This document shows positions 9,745 through 20,285 of a stretch of DNA of 20,285 bases, piece by piece. The stretch covers positions 1 to 20,285 of IMG/VR virus record IMGVR_UViG_3300017770_000241, one strand, 5' to 3'. The notes beneath the pieces were generated by a model, which saw only the letters and a list, made by a program, of their open reading frames with translations, was not told where the DNA came from and did no database searches. The stretch is from a virus. Positions within the stretch are counted from its first letter, which is position 1; every line of letters begins with the position of its first letter. Position numbers and translations under genes: made by a program.

Positions 9745-9773
9745 ATTATAACACAAAAAAAGACCCCTGTCAA
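9745..9773 (-). promoter_or_regulatory. Consensus sigma70 promoter for the replication operon
   Basis: TTGACA (9773-9768), a 17-base spacer and TATAAT (9750-9745): a perfect bacterial housekeeping promoter, with a TG one base before the -10. The -35 lies in the loop of the terminator of the preceding gene, and the terminator's 3' arm and T-tract form the spacer. Confidence 0.85.
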
Positions 9774-9785
9774 GTCAAGGGTCTT
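9760..9785 (-). terminator. Terminator interlaced with the rnh promoter
   Basis: A 7-bp stem AAGACCC/GGGTCTT with a 12-base loop, followed on the minus strand by TTTTTTT. It ends the gene at 9775-10029, whose stop codon TGA lies in the loop. Confidence 0.75.
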
Positions 9786-10029
9786 CGGTGATGTCTTCTG
9801 GGCTGAACCCCTCTGGGTCGTAGCCGGGTTCGAAGTCAATGATCATGTATTCTCCCCGATCAATCTCGCCGTCTTTGTCGTAGATTTCGGGATGTGGGTT
9901 CTCTTCGAATAGGTCTTCAAACTCATGTCTGGTGTGTTGCATATAAACTATGAATCTCTCAGCGGAGATCCAACCAACAACTACTCCTAGTATAAGAAAT
10001 ACTTCGGAGAAGAGAAAAGCATTTGACAT
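9775..10029 (-). CDS. Single-pass membrane protein, conserved cyanophage type
   Basis: An 84-residue protein with one N-terminal membrane helix (residues about 5-24, FLFSEVFLILGVVVGWISA) and an acidic soluble part (EENPHPEIYDKDGEI, then GEYMIIDFEPGYDPEGF). The 'HPEIYDxxG' and 'EYxxxxFE' pattern recalls small cyanophage membrane proteins of unknown function. The start at 10029 is supported by AAGGAG eight bases upstream. It is the last gene of the hli/glutaredoxin region, closed by a terminator. Confidence 0.78.
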   Translation of the reverse strand: MSNAFLFSEVFLILGVVVGWISAERFIVYMQHTRHEFEDLFEENPHPEIYDKDGEIDRGEYMIIDFEPGYDPEGFSPEDITEDP

Positions 10030-10178: not shown

Positions 10179-10417
10179 GTGTATTTATGGTCAACTAGAT
10201 AACGAACGGTGTCCTTCATTCCTCCAATGTTTTGATTCAAGTAGTGGACTTGTGGGAAAGTTGAATTGTAGCCAAACTTTTCAATGAAGTCTTCTTTCGA
10301 GTAGTCAGATCCTAGATTAAACTTTTCAAATGGAATCTTCTTTGATTCCATAAAGTTGATTAGTTTATCACAGAATCCACACCCATCCTTGGAGTAAACG
10401 TAGAACTTGTTGGACAT
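10175..10417 (-). CDS. Glutaredoxin
   Basis: An 80-residue glutaredoxin with active site Cys13-Gly-Phe-Cys16, the cis-proline segment TFPQV (residues 53-57) and the GG motif IGGMKD (64-69) that contacts glutathione. It is likely to reduce ribonucleotide reductase or other phage-relevant thiols. The ATG follows the T-tract of a hairpin directly and no Shine-Dalgarno is visible. A sigma70-type promoter lies just upstream, overlapping the hairpin. Confidence 0.9.
   Translation of the reverse strand: MSNKFYVYSKDGCGFCDKLINFMESKKIPFEKFNLGSDYSKEDFIEKFGYNSTFPQVHYLNQNIGGMKDTVRYLVDHKYT
10182..10189 (-). promoter_or_regulatory. Possible late promoter CATAAATA at the end of glutaredoxin
   Basis: CATAAATA in the last codons of glutaredoxin (His-Lys-Tyr). 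It could drive the 47-residue gene from its internal ATG or the membrane protein at 10029 late in infection. Confidence 0.35.
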
Positions 10418-10422
10418 AAAAA

Positions 10423-10444
10423 TAGGGGTAATGTCTCACCCCTA
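10423..10444 (-). terminator. Stem-loop between promoter and glutaredoxin start
   Basis: A 7-bp stem TAGGGGT/ACCCCTA with an 8-base loop, followed by TTTTT, then ATG after one more base. It starts immediately after the -10 at 10445. Transcripts from upstream genes would form it and end; those started here (about 10438) would lack the 5' arm. Confidence 0.75.
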
Positions 10445-10473
10445 ATTATATCATATTCAGTTGTGGTTTTCAA
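10445..10473 (-). promoter_or_regulatory. Sigma70-type promoter for glutaredoxin
   Basis: TTGAAA (10473-10468), 17-base spacer, TATAAT (10450-10445), with TG one base before the -10 (extended -10). It lies directly after the stop codon of the 48-residue gene. Confidence 0.75.
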
Positions 10474-10474
10474 T

Positions 10475-10621
10475 CTACGATTGTTCTTGGGTTTTATTGT
10501 AGATAACTACTCTTCCGTTTTCGTGTATGAAAACAAGTTCGTCATCAGGGTCCCAACAAAGTTCTTCGTAGAGAGCATCTAGTTTTTGGATGTCTTCGAT
10601 GAGAGCATTTGGATTAGACAT
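10475..10621 (-). CDS. Small acidic protein (48 aa)
   Basis: A 48-residue frame beginning MSNPNALIEDIQKLDALYEE, followed by CWDPDDELVFIHENGRVVIY. An amphipathic helix is followed by a probable beta-hairpin. Its ATG overlaps the stop of the 28-residue gene by one base (TGATG). It is the last member of a chain of very small genes. Family not recognised. Confidence 0.7.
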   Translation of the reverse strand: MSNPNALIEDIQKLDALYEELCWDPDDELVFIHENGRVVIYNKTQEQS

Positions 10622-12653: not shown

Positions 12654-12857
12654 TCAGTCGTCGAATACTTTACATTGAGGAGAACCTGGATGGTCATCAC
12701 AGAACTTGTCTAGAATTTTGTCCCGGTGTCTGTTGTGCCAATCGGAGAGCTTACCTTCTGTCTTGGGATCCCACTCATCATCTGTGTGGGTCTCGTTACA
12801 ATGAAGGTCGACTTTGTACTTGGCGTACTTGTCGTTGGGGTCTTTTTGTACTGTCAT
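12654..12857 (-). CDS. cp12: CP12-like Calvin cycle inhibitor
   Basis: A 67-residue polar, disordered-looking protein. Its C-terminus, LDKFCDDHPGSPQCKVFDD, matches the GAPDH-binding end of CP12 (typically FCDLNPDAPECRVYDD): two cysteines eight residues apart (Cys53, Cys62), Pro between them, and a closing acidic pair. CP12 ties GAPDH and phosphoribulokinase into an inactive complex; in cyanophage it is thought to shift carbon flow from the Calvin cycle to the pentose phosphate pathway. The N-terminal cysteine pair and the AWD_VEEL core are missing (one Cys at 20). It overlaps nusG by four bases. Confidence 0.75.
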   Translation of the reverse strand: MTVQKDPNDKYAKYKVDLHCNETHTDDEWDPKTEGKLSDWHNRHRDKILDKFCDDHPGSPQCKVFDD

Positions 12858-13435
12858 TTTTTGTAAACCTGTTCTTTGGTGAACTCTGCTGGTACTTCTC
12901 TACCAAACATATCTATTTGACCGAGGATTTTCGTCCCCTGTATATTTACCACTTCACATTTGTAGCCACTGAATGGACCAGAAACAACATCAAGAATGTC
13001 ACCGACTTCATAGTCATCTCTATCATTCTGTTTGACTTCAAGATGGGTATCATCAACTCGGTCAAAGACAGATTTGATTTCGTGTGGCTTCATGGGTCTA
13101 GGCTTCTTCTTATTAAGTCCAGCAAACCCGAGGACATTAAAGGTTTTGTTGATAGTTTCTTGCGTGAATGCTGGAAACTCGTAATGAATATTACCTAACT
13201 CATCCTCAAACCTTTCTTGAAGGACTTGAACAAGGATGTATCCGGGAAGAACTTTTGTTTTGACAATTCGTCTCTTACCGGACTTGTCGACTTTCATCTC
13301 TGTTGATTCTGGAACTTCGACACCTTGGATAAACCTATCATCAAGGATAGCTTTACGAGCTAGGAGGTCAGCTTTGGCTTTCTTTTCACACCCAGAAGCA
13401 ACTTGAACACAATACCAATTTTTATAGTCCATCAA
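12854..13435 (-). CDS. nusG: NusG-type transcription elongation factor
   Basis: A 193-residue protein with both NusG domains. NGN: WYCVQVASGCEKKAKADLLA, then VKTKVLPGYILVQV and NVLGFAG, with a PRPM segment before the linker. KOW: YEVGDILDVVSGPFSGYKCE, then MFGREVPAEFTKEQV. The wording 'VQVAS-CEK--KA-L' and 'FGRE-PVE' is that of cyanobacterial NusG, suggesting acquisition from the host. NusG binds the RNA polymerase clamp, suppresses pausing and couples to Rho or ribosomes. The gene is second in an operon with its own sigma70 promoter and overlaps both neighbours by four bases. Confidence 0.88.
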   Translation of the reverse strand: MMDYKNWYCVQVASGCEKKAKADLLARKAILDDRFIQGVEVPESTEMKVDKSGKRRIVKTKVLPGYILVQVLQERFEDELGNIHYEFPAFTQETINKTFNVLGFAGLNKKKPRPMKPHEIKSVFDRVDDTHLEVKQNDRDDYEVGDILDVVSGPFSGYKCEVVNIQGTKILGQIDMFGREVPAEFTKEQVYKK

Positions 13436-13667: not shown

Positions 13668-13696
13668 ATTATAAAGGATATTACTATTTAAGTCAA
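13668..13696 (-). promoter_or_regulatory. Sigma70-type promoter of the nusG operon
   Basis: TTGACT (13696-13691), 17-base spacer, TATAAT (13673-13668). The TGA stop of the glycosylase-like gene (13695-13693) is inside the -35 box. Confidence 0.8.
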
Positions 13697-14232
13697 GTCG
13701 GAAGTGTAAGCCACGACGGACGACGCTCTGGAACTCTGAGGTAGTTGTCAAACACCCAAGGCTTAGAACTTACATATCTTTGGTAAGCAGTGATGTCATC
13801 GATAGTATCATCAAATTTAAACTCATCAGGCATTGCTCTGGAGAAACCGATAATGTTATGAGACATCTCAGAAGAGTCACCCGCTATACTTTGAAAGAGT
13901 TCTTGTGACTCAAACACAGACTTAGTAAGTCCGTGGAGTTTATTATAACGAAACTTGAATTCTTCACACAGACCACGAGCATGTTCGATTAGCCAAGCAC
14001 AATTTTCTACTGAGTCGGCAGCCCATATAGTACATGGATGTTTCTTGAAAGCACCCTTAGCAGTTTTGAAGGGAGTCCCATCTACTTTTAAAACCACACC
14101 AACGTCCCAGTAATGGGGTGAGAAGACCAGTGATAACATCTGACAGGACTCCAGTATCATCTTCGTCACATGACGGTCTGGGAGTTCTTTGGCGGCAGTG
14201 ATGGGGTCTGGATTAACAGCGAATATATTCAC
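13693..14232 (-). CDS. Pyrimidine-dimer DNA glycosylase-like protein (PF03013 type)
   Basis: A 179-residue protein read from GTG 14232: MNIFAVNPDPITAAKELPDR followed by HVTKMILESCQMLSLV, then KKHPCTIWAADSVENCAWLI and RAMPDEFKFDD, and near the end YQRYVSSKPWVFDNYLR and RKPSWL-like RRPSWL. This plan belongs to marine phage proteins related to pyrimidine dimer DNA glycosylase (Pyr_excise), which would repair UV damage in a sunlit host. Activity cannot be judged from sequence. A longer frame from 14289 runs through the terminator hairpin and is not believed. Confidence 0.75.
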   Translation of the reverse strand: MNIFAVNPDPITAAKELPDRHVTKMILESCQMLSLVFSPHYWDVGVVLKVDGTPFKTAKGAFKKHPCTIWAADSVENCAWLIEHARGLCEEFKFRYNKLHGLTKSVFESQELFQSIAGDSSEMSHNIIGFSRAMPDEFKFDDTIDDITAYQRYVSSKPWVFDNYLRVPERRPSWLTLPT

Positions 14233-14236
14233 AAAA

Positions 14237-14260
14237 AAGGGGGGAGCTGGACTCCCCCTT
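14237..14260 (-). terminator. Stem-loop fused to the start of the glycosylase-like gene
   Basis: A 7-bp all but pure GC stem GGGGGAG/CTCCCCC with a 5-base loop, extended by an AA/TT pair around a bulge, then TTTTTT, then the GTG start codon with no base between. The -10 of the promoter touches its 5' side. Confidence 0.8.
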
Positions 14261-14289
14261 ACTATAACACACGAGGTGCTTCTTGACAA
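14261..14289 (-). promoter_or_regulatory. Sigma70-type promoter for the glycosylase-like gene
   Basis: TTGTCA (14289-14284), 17-base spacer, TATAGT (14266-14261). The whole promoter lies in the end of the 62-residue gene, whose TAG stop is part of the -10. Confidence 0.65.
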
Positions 14290-14637: not shown

Positions 14638-15310
14638 AAATAAACCCGTTTCTTTCGAGCCATAGTCGTGTCAAGGGAGTTGGTGTAATCTCTTCCCAGG
14701 GTTTGTTATTTGTTTCGTTGATGACTTGCAACACTTCTAGTGTCATGTTAGGTGTCGAACCTGCCCACTTGGCTTCACGTTCCCAAGGTAACACTTGAGG
14801 TTGACCACCATAGGCAATATCAGCCATCAAGACAAATTCTTGAGGTACATCTTCTTCGGGGTAGATAATGGCAATGTTATTATTACTAATGGTACCTGCC
14901 ATGGCATCTTGTGCTGCGTGCCAGGCTTCGTGTCTGAGTGTCTTAATCATCCTCATCTGGTTGCTGGCATACCTTGAACTCAGGAAGAAGTCATTACCTA
15001 CAGTGTAATACACACCGGCGTTTGATGCTGGGAAGTATTTTGAGTCACCTAGGTATACACCTACACCCATTTTGGCTAGTTCAACGATCAGACCATTAGC
15101 TTCTTCTTCCACATAGGAGTAGTCAGAATTAGGAAAGGCTGCCTGTAGGTCAGCAATTGAGTTGAGTTTAATGACATCGTCTTGACACTCCCTCATCATC
15201 ATACAACCCATAGAGTCATTAGTCTGCCAACCTCTTACTTCTGGGTCAGCCAGAGCAGGGATAGTAAGTGAGACAGTGGCAATTGCCGCTGTAATAAAGT
15301 GTTTAATCAT
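14636..15310 (-). CDS. Exported protein with HEAWH metalloprotease motif
   Basis: A 224-residue protein with a signal peptide (MIKHFITAAIATVSLTIPAL, cleavage after ALA/D, residue 21). The zinc-protease motif HEAWH is at residues 127-131, in the helix LRHEAWHAAQDAMAG; a cysteine pair (residues 36 and 42) may form a disulfide. Similar exported proteins with the N-terminal 'GWxTxxxMGCMMxREC' and C-terminal 'PTPLTRxxLxxNGFI' occur in other cyanomyoviruses as I recall. A periplasmic protease is likely from the motif; substrate unknown. Confidence 0.82.
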   Translation of the reverse strand: MIKHFITAAIATVSLTIPALADPEVRGWQTNDSMGCMMMRECQDDVIKLNSIADLQAAFPNSDYSYVEEEANGLIVELAKMGVGVYLGDSKYFPASNAGVYYTVGNDFFLSSRYASNQMRMIKTLRHEAWHAAQDAMAGTISNNNIAIIYPEEDVPQEFVLMADIAYGGQPQVLPWEREAKWAGSTPNMTLEVLQVINETNNKPWEEITPTPLTRLWLERNGFI

Positions 15311-15988: not shown

Positions 15989-16007
15989 AGGGAGGTTTTA
16001 CCTCCCT
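15989..16007 (-). terminator. Stem-loop between DoxX and the 88-aa gene
   Basis: A perfect 8-bp stem AGGGAGGT/ACCTCCCT with an AAA loop, followed by TTTTT; the ATG at 15982 follows two bases later. It terminates the psbD-DoxX transcript and overlaps the start region of the promoter at 16010. Confidence 0.8.
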
Positions 16008-16009
16008 AT

Positions 16010-16038
16010 ATTATACATCTTTAATTGTTGGGTGTTAA
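16010..16038 (-). promoter_or_regulatory. Sigma70-type promoter for the 88-aa gene
   Basis: TTAACA (16038-16033), 17-base spacer, TATAAT (16015-16010). The stop codon of doxX lies in the spacer. Confidence 0.7.
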
Positions 16039-18038: not shown

Positions 18039-18056
18039 AGGGGTCCTCGGACCCCT
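18039..18056 (-). terminator. Stem-loop after psbA
   Basis: A 7-bp stem AGGGGTC/GACCCCT closed by a CGAG tetraloop, followed on the minus strand by TTTTCTTTT. It should end most psbA transcripts, making psbA the most abundant message of the cluster. Confidence 0.8.
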
Positions 18057-18060
18057 ACTA

Positions 18061-18069
18061 ATTATACCA
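18061..18069 (-). promoter_or_regulatory. Extended -10 promoter before ferredoxin
   Basis: TGG-TATAAT: TG, one base, then a perfect -10 (18066-18061). No -35 is visible at 16-18 bases. The psbA terminator hairpin begins five bases after it, so new transcripts would start within the hairpin's 5' arm and could read petF and psbD. Confidence 0.5.
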
Positions 18070-19354: not shown

Positions 19355-19370
19355 GGGGACCGAAGTCCCC
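19355..19370 (-). terminator. Intrinsic terminator of the repeat-rich gene
   Basis: A 6-bp stem GGGGAC/GTCCCC closed by a TTCG tetraloop, followed by TTTTTT on the minus strand. It insulates psbA from the gene at 19396. Confidence 0.88.
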
Positions 19371-19395: not shown

Positions 19396-20285
19396 TCAAC
19401 CCATCAGGTCGATTACCCAGTCGTCACTCATATGCTCAACGATTGCCTTGGCTGCCTCTTCATTGGGAGCATAACCCTCACCGACCATATAACGAACCAT
19501 TGCATCATAATTCTCAGATTTAAACTTCGAGACACTATTAAGTGCTGCAGCAAGTCTTGGGGATTTAATAGGTGATGCCGATGGCTTGGGGGCAGTTGGT
19601 GCGCTCATCGCCCGAACCTGTGAAGTATCAGGCTTAGGTGCTGCTGGTTTGGGTGATGGTGAAACAGCAGAACCAATGGACCTAGCACCAGATGAAGCAG
19701 CGGCAGCTTTCTGACCGGGTGCATTACCTTTCTGATAACCAAAGGTTTTTTGCATCAGTGGGTTGGATGTTTGCTTAGGTCCCTTGTCATAAACACTGGG
19801 GCCCTTTGCGGGTGCTGGTGATGATGACTGTCTGGGTGCTGGTGACGATGACTGTCTAGGTGCTGGTGATGAATCCACCCTAGGTGCTGGTGATGAATCC
19901 ACCCTAGGTGCTGGATCTTCCTTCTTAGGTGCTGGATCTTCCTTCTTAGGTGCTGGATCTTCCTTCTTAGGTGCTGGATCTTCCTTCTTAGGTGCTGGAG
20001 TTGGTGCTGATGTTTGAGGTTGTGCCTTGAACTCGGGGTTACTTTTCAGGTTCTTATCACCTTGTTGTCTTACATTATAACCAGCTTGTCTTCTCAATGA
20101 GTCATCAGACGCGCGTCTCCACCTCTGTTGACCTGTTCCGGTGGGTTTGACGTTGCCTTTCTGCAGTCTTTCATACTCTGCCTTTTCAGCAGCGGCACCA
20201 CCACCAGCTGCTTGTCTTTTCCGGTCAGCCTCAATTGCTGCCGTCCTTTGTGCGGCCGCCGATGTGTTACGGCCGCTGTTTTTAC
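19396..20285 (-). CDS. Repeat-rich protein, probably virion-associated (partial, 5' end outside window)
   Basis: The frame is open to the right edge: at least 295 residues are in the window and no start is visible. The N-terminal part is Ala/Gln/Arg-rich with coiled-coil stretches (AAAEKAEYERLQKGN). Next comes a tract of PAPKKED x4, PAPRVDSS x2 and PAPRQSSS x2, then a Pro/Ala/Ser linker. The C-terminal domain, KSENYDAMVRYMVGEGYAPN followed by EEAAKAIVEHMSDDWVIDLM, resembles a motif at the ends of several marine myovirus proteins ('YLLxEGYADxxEAAExIxxxMSEEW'), which I remember as structural. A terminator follows. Confidence 0.75.
   Translation of the reverse strand, partial: KNSGRNTSAAAQRTAAIEADRKRQAAGGGAAAEKAEYERLQKGNVKPTGTGQQRWRRASDDSLRRQAGYNVRQQGDKNLKSNPEFKAQPQTSAPTPAPKKEDPAPKKEDPAPKKEDPAPKKEDPAPRVDSSPAPRVDSSPAPRQSSSPAPRQSSSPAPAKGPSVYDKGPKQTSNPLMQKTFGYQKGNAPGQKAAAASSGARSIGSAVSPSPKPAAPKPDTSQVRAMSAPTAPKPSASPIKSPRLAAALNSVSKFKSENYDAMVRYMVGEGYAPNEEAAKAIVEHMSDDWVIDLMG
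19811..19990. repeat. In-frame tandem repeats, 4 x 24 and 4 x 21 bases
   Basis: Eight units that all begin GGTGCTGG on the plus strand. 19811-19906 holds four 24-base units in two subtypes; 19907-19990 holds four identical 21-base units. They encode the PAPxxxx(S) tract of the minus-strand protein. The four 21-base units look identical in sequence, suggesting recent expansion. Confidence 0.95.

Follow-up and report, generated by a model that had tools for sequence, protein, structure and literature searches.

The DNA analyzed here, referred to below as the window, is a 20,285-base IMG/VR record from a T4-like cyanophage that carries psbA, psbD, ferredoxin, and hli genes; judged by its RNase H protein, it comes closest, among isolates, to S-B68 and S-CREM2, at about 75% identity. 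The window holds 36 terminator-like sites, versus 15.2 ± 3.9 in shuffled sequences. Upstream of the gene for an NrdC-like glutaredoxin, a promoter, a hairpin, a T-tract, and the start codon follow one another without a gap (site A; Table 1). The initial annotation had described this junction as TTGAAA-17-TATAAT, a 7-bp GC hairpin, TTTTT, one base, and ATG, lacking a Shine-Dalgarno sequence, with a transcription start at about 10438, at the end of the hairpin's 5' arm. We recovered both promoter boxes at the claimed spacing (10473-10445, minus strand), found no Shine-Dalgarno sequence between the stem and the ATG, and located the predicted start (10438-10436) where the 5' arm ends, as had been stated. 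A hairpin is indeed present, as are TTTTT and ATG, but the stem has 9 bp, of which only 4 are G-C pairs, and no base separates the T-tract from the ATG (10417-10415), which directly abuts it. The stem-loop reads TAGGGGTGA(GACA)TTACCCCTA (10444-10423, minus strand), and the stem pairs no ribosome-binding site close to the ATG. Every element is on the minus strand, which had not been specified before. Folding predicted that read-through RNA forms the site A hairpin and that RNA starting at 10438 loses it.

Table 1. Coordinates of the fused junctions and associated features in the window
Feature	Position	Strand	Basis or remark
Site A -35 box, TTGAAA	10468..10473	-	Conserved in homologs
Site A -10 box, TATAAT	10445..10450	-	Spacer of 17 to -35; kept in homologs
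Site A predicted transcription start	10436..10438	-	~7 nt past -10, within hairpin 5' arm; from sigma-70 spacing
Site A hairpin, 9-bp stem, GACA loop	10423..10444	-	Sequence, folding, covariation
Site A T-tract, TTTTT	10418..10422	-	Invariant in aligned homologs
Glutaredoxin (NrdC-like) gene, 80 aa	10175..10417	-	Pfam PF00462, 1.1e-9
Site B promoter, TTGTCA-17-TATAGT	14261..14289	-	Sequence
Site B hairpin, then C+T6 and GTG 14232	14240..14258	-	Sequence, folding
denV-like (Pyr_excise) gene, start GTG 14232	13693..14232	-	
Site C promoter, TTAACA-17-TATAAT	16010..16038	-	Sequence
Site C hairpin, then T4-5 and ATG 15982	15989..16007	-	Before a gene of unknown function
Site D TATAAT, TGG before, no good -35	18061..18066	-	Just after psbA stop
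Site D hairpin, starts 4 nt past -10	18039..18056	-	Ferredoxin ATG 18010 ~29 nt on
Class B junction	9745..9786	-	Upstream of RNase H

The same plan had been claimed to recur at 14261, 16010, and 18061. The first two positions (sites B and C) are true repeats, each with a -35 box, a -10 box, a hairpin, a T-tract, and a start codon (GTG 14232 and ATG 15982, respectively). The third (site D), situated between psbA and ferredoxin, has a perfect TATAAT and a hairpin, but it lacks a -35 box, its hairpin is shifted by 4 nt, and the start codon is ~29 nt off. The -35 boxes of sites A and C are imperfect. The junctions display features of intrinsic terminators, i.e., a GC-containing stem, a short loop, and a U-tract directly after it. 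In relatives of the denV-like gene, an ATG start occupies the place equivalent to GTG 14232, directly after the T-tract, and no relatives of the site C protein were found in IMG/VR. When the truncated RNAs were folded, site C lost its hairpin, site B kept a 4-bp remnant, and site D kept a 5-bp remnant; at site D, a 5-bp stem would survive a start 7 nt past the -10 because the hairpin begins 4 nt later. Ordinary terminator-then-promoter pairs also occur in the window, at 19370/19339 and 11390/11315.

Conservation upstream of glutaredoxin genes

Relatives of the glutaredoxin were collected from 27 IMG/VR loci, and in the majority of loci whose upstream DNA is readable the -35 box, TATAAT, stem, T5, and ATG stand in the same order. 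The T5 and the ATG are invariant in the glutaredoxin alignments while the stem varies, with two-sided compensatory changes at 6 of the 9 pairs. More specifically, 96.3% of alignment cells in the stem are paired, a level equaled by 0 of 500 shuffles, and slid pairing registers reach 48% at most. At loci L022 and L023, pairing is kept despite fewer G residues. The glutaredoxin gene also keeps the element while its upstream neighbor varies (DUF7191, several small membrane proteins, or an HLI-like protein); the element appears to travel with the downstream gene and not with the upstream one.

Two pairs of loci depart from this arrangement. Upstream of glutaredoxin at L010 and L012, we found no hairpin, and the fused element is replaced by the late-promoter motif NATAAATA, suggesting that glutaredoxin switched temporal class in some lineages. 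At L008 and L009, glutaredoxin is preceded by a separate, ordinary upstream terminator, together with a promoter that has a weak AU hairpin only. Both patterns, which come from few and related cases, are as expected if the hairpin stops incoming transcripts.

Fused junctions among cyanophage terminators

The broader survey covered eight cyanophage isolates, RB49, and T4, all as complete genomes, together with more than 100 IMG/VR loci, and detected 616 non-redundant terminators, 535 of them from cyanophages. In 36 of the 535 (class A), the stem follows an exact TATAAT at a distance of 0-4 nt; permuted hexamers in the same register gave a mean of 3.9, and some of these permutations overlap the motif. 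Relative to the stem, the positions of exact TATAAT form two sharp peaks, class A and a second register that we call class B. The -35 match of class A sites averages 3.55/6 at spacing 17 versus about 1.5 elsewhere; this signal, which appears only near spacing 17, provides an independent check. Chance or AT-richness near terminators was ruled out as the source of the pattern by the permuted hexamers, a reversed-hexamer control, and the independent -35 signal. In the isolates alone, we counted 7 class A sites in 8 genomes versus 1.15 expected (p = 2e-4); at ~1 site per isolate genome, the density in the full set derives largely from uncultured contigs fetched through a few genes. In Syn9 (L516, 166500-170000), the element occupies 168317-168351, immediately downstream of psbD, and the gp219 ATG is at 168349; its TATAAT starts with the first base past the psbD stop codon (TGATATAAT), and its -35 box consequently falls inside psbD itself.

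In the class B register, the start of the stem precedes TATAAT by 31-46 nt (63 cases in cyanophage loci); often, the -35 box sits within or close to the hairpin loop, with the T-tract in the promoter spacer. The junction upstream of RNase H in the window is built in this way: hairpin 9786-9759 contains the -35 box TTGACA (9773-9768), the -10 box TATAAT is at 9750-9745, and the T-tract fills the spacer.

IMG/VR-wide scans extended these counts. A pattern of TATAAT, GGG, and TTTTTTATG, with no stem required, returned at least 121 matches; among the matches listed, 104 of 121 have a stem versus 3.6 expected from shuffled gaps, and 73 of the 104 listed stem-bearing matches have a -35 box of at least 4/6. 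With GGG omitted, a stem is present in 34 of the 97 matches listed versus 1.9 expected, and 30 of these 34 listed stems begin 0-1 nt after the -10. The control hexamer TAATAT gave a stem in 3 of 32. By eye, the stemless matches among those listed often carry a Shine-Dalgarno-like sequence. Stem frequency was far above expectation in both forms of the scan. The observation itself is real and far beyond chance. Among the matches listed for class A plus ATG, 127 of 142 loci resemble cyanomyoviruses; the downstream proteins belong to at least about 35 families, and the hairpins are of many different kinds. Across 151 Synechococcus-family host genomes, we found 2 pattern matches versus 3 for the reversed control, which rules out a host-type arrangement. 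The element is phage-specific and essentially absent from host genomes.

The position of the stem relative to the promoter is tightly constrained. Among strong promoters of the IMG/VR loci, the distance from the -10 to the stem is 0-4 nt in 54 promoter-hairpin pairs and 5-60 nt in 4, and in 22 of 145 strong promoters of the IMG/VR cyanophage loci it is 0-2 nt. It is mainly this near absence of hairpins 5-60 nt downstream that leads us to regard the transcription start as meant to fall in the 5' arm. A class A transcript starting 7 nt past the -10 would retain 0-6 bp of the stem (median, 3), with 5-6 bp retained at 9 of the 36 sites, site D included. A hairpin and U-tract just upstream of a gene would also suit a leader attenuator, or a protective 5' hairpin carried by the new transcript itself; in the preferred register, however, RNA with a normal start would be without the 5' arm, and the truncated RNAs of sites A and C lose the hairpin on folding, so that we regard this explanation as very improbable.

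The start codon lies no more than 12 nt from the stem in 28 of 36 class A sites, versus 96 of 436 other terminators (p = 2e-11), and a Shine-Dalgarno sequence follows the stem in 0 of the 36. The proposal that the start codon is part of the unit therefore agrees with these 28 sites but not with site D. Proximity of stem and start codon is also what a translational switch would call for, in which the read-through hairpin hides the gene start, only the short RNA is translated, and termination is secondary or absent. The same geometry, in which transcription begins within the hairpin, has been documented in T4: in T4 e, soc, I-TevI, and segB, read-through RNA folds a hairpin that locally initiated RNA cannot form (PMC2988022). 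The read-through fold of site A, moreover, pairs bases around the AUG with upstream bases. Yet the cyanophage stem holds no Shine-Dalgarno sequence to hide, the invariant T-tract is a feature of terminators, the start codon of site D is about 29 nt away, and the T4 cases (of the e, soc, and I-TevI type) use late promoters. A switch of this type consequently seems unlikely to us, although it is the least improbable of the alternatives considered.

The 5' arm of class A sites is unusually rich in G (0.90, versus 0.64 in other terminators; p = 7e-8). G after the -10 stabilizes open complexes, and the excess is specific to class A, as would be expected if the arm served mainly as a sigma region 1.2 discriminator that tunes how the promoter opens and termination were a side effect. 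Such a discriminator needs no matching 3' arm, compensatory changes, or T-tract, and the stems at L022 and L023 still pair although they have fewer G residues; we give this reading very little credence. The G excess could also hint at an extra constraint at the DNA level, and a place right after the -10 would suit a repressor, i.e., the inverted repeat would be a protein-binding operator rather than an RNA hairpin. However, the stems vary freely from gene to gene and covary within a single gene, and their short loops and one-sided T-tract are features of RNA terminators, making an operator highly unlikely. Aid to promoter opening as an additional role of the G-rich arm, beside a role in termination, may be entertained as speculation.

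A putative insulating junction and its relation to known elements

We consider it likely, from the anatomy of the sites, that the fused terminator-promoter-start junction acts as an insulator at which incoming transcripts stop and local transcripts pass. Polymerase arriving from the upstream gene would transcribe the full hairpin and U-tract and terminate. Local polymerase would start about 7 nt past the -10, inside the 5' arm of the hairpin; because the start falls within this arm, the local RNA could not form the hairpin, and the polymerase would escape, leaving an mRNA whose leader, some 20 nt made up of loop, C-rich 3' arm, and U-tract, would stand directly before the start codon. The C- and U-rich character of this predicted leader follows from the unusual G-richness of the 5' arm. 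In this way, a few dozen bases could close one transcription unit, open the following one, and provide its leader. The predicted termination and passing steps, as read from anatomy and evolution, appear well supported. The interpretation in the initial annotation is partly borne out, and its logic, that incoming RNA folds and new RNA without the 5' arm does not, is strongly backed by the anatomy (54 versus 4 pairs, with a median of 3 bp left). With somewhat less assurance, we lean toward a broader reading in which the junction is a portable cyanomyovirus unit serving dozens of gene families, with transcription starting inside the 5' arm of its own terminator, the hairpin stopping only foreign transcripts, and the U-tract acting as a Shine-Dalgarno-free leader for ribosome landing.

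PeSL (promoter-early stem-loop) cassettes, reportedly described in the T4-type phages RB49 and phi1 by Arbiol et al. in 2010 and Comeau et al. in 2014, are said to combine a strong sigma-70 promoter with a stem-loop in the promoter region at many early genes of T4-like phages. Sites A to C likewise pair a sigma-70 promoter with a stem-loop in the promoter region. The earlier suggestion that they are the cyanophage form of PeSL holds insofar as both are promoter/stem-loop composites that would work alike, but register, U-tract, leader, and copy similarity all differ from RB49. RB49 stems are of two kinds, 10 occupying the 17-nt spacer and 6 spanning the -10; counted from the end of the -10, they start at -24 and -16, versus 0-2 in cyanophages. 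They lack a U-tract and stand ahead of a leader with a Shine-Dalgarno sequence, whereas the cyanophage stem has a U-tract, lacks a Shine-Dalgarno sequence, and usually abuts the start codon. Copies on one cyanophage contig are 16-52% alike outside the -10, which is about chance, whereas RB49 copies are up to 87% alike upstream; within contigs, this low similarity rules out a shared mobile or recombining sequence. In ten RB49 promoters (L050-L052), the 17-nt spacer is an inverted repeat (e.g., GGGGATCGGTGATCCCC) exactly between the -35 and the -10.

In the hairpin-regulated late genes of T4, local transcripts lack one hairpin arm, as we would predict for the cyanophage junctions from the position of the -10. 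In T4, however, the hairpin hides the ribosome-binding site and the promoter is a late one, whereas the cyanophage junction has a U-tract, no Shine-Dalgarno sequence, and a sigma-70 promoter. An ordinary terminator followed by a promoter also insulates the new unit, but it does so by two separate, successive signals; the hairpin of the fused element is located within the initiation region. Set apart from PeSL by inspection of the RB49 sequences, the cyanophage element would merge the PeSL and the T4 one-arm ideas in a new build.

The separate control of host-derived and accessory genes in tightly packed cyanophage genomes is poorly understood. A 2010 review described the mechanism of early and middle cyanophage transcription as open (PMC2984593), and a 2015 paper found PeSLs to be sparse in S-PM2 (PMC4503421). 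The junction proposed here would be a compact form of gene punctuation, recurrent in marine cyanophages, that places promoter, stop hairpin, and start codon within about 60 bases. It yields a precise, testable rule, namely, that the hairpin arm carried by a transcript distinguishes read-through from local RNA; it would allow transcription units to be called by sequence alone in uncultured cyanophages, and it could furnish a compact insulator-promoter part, ready for cyanobacterial synthetic biology.

Other features of the window deserve mention. A NusG-like antiterminator gene (phrog_6386; 12857-13435) sits between two fused junctions, and S-N03 and S-CREM2 have an annotated NusG/antitermination gene near glutaredoxin; the NusG-like protein of the window might act at the terminators of the fused junctions. 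A tRNA-Leu (caa) called by ARAGORN at 14740-14834 falls within a same-strand open reading frame of 224 aa and is probably a false call. The open reading frame at 19396-20285 contains tandem repeats with a proline/lysine-rich motif (APKKEDP-like).
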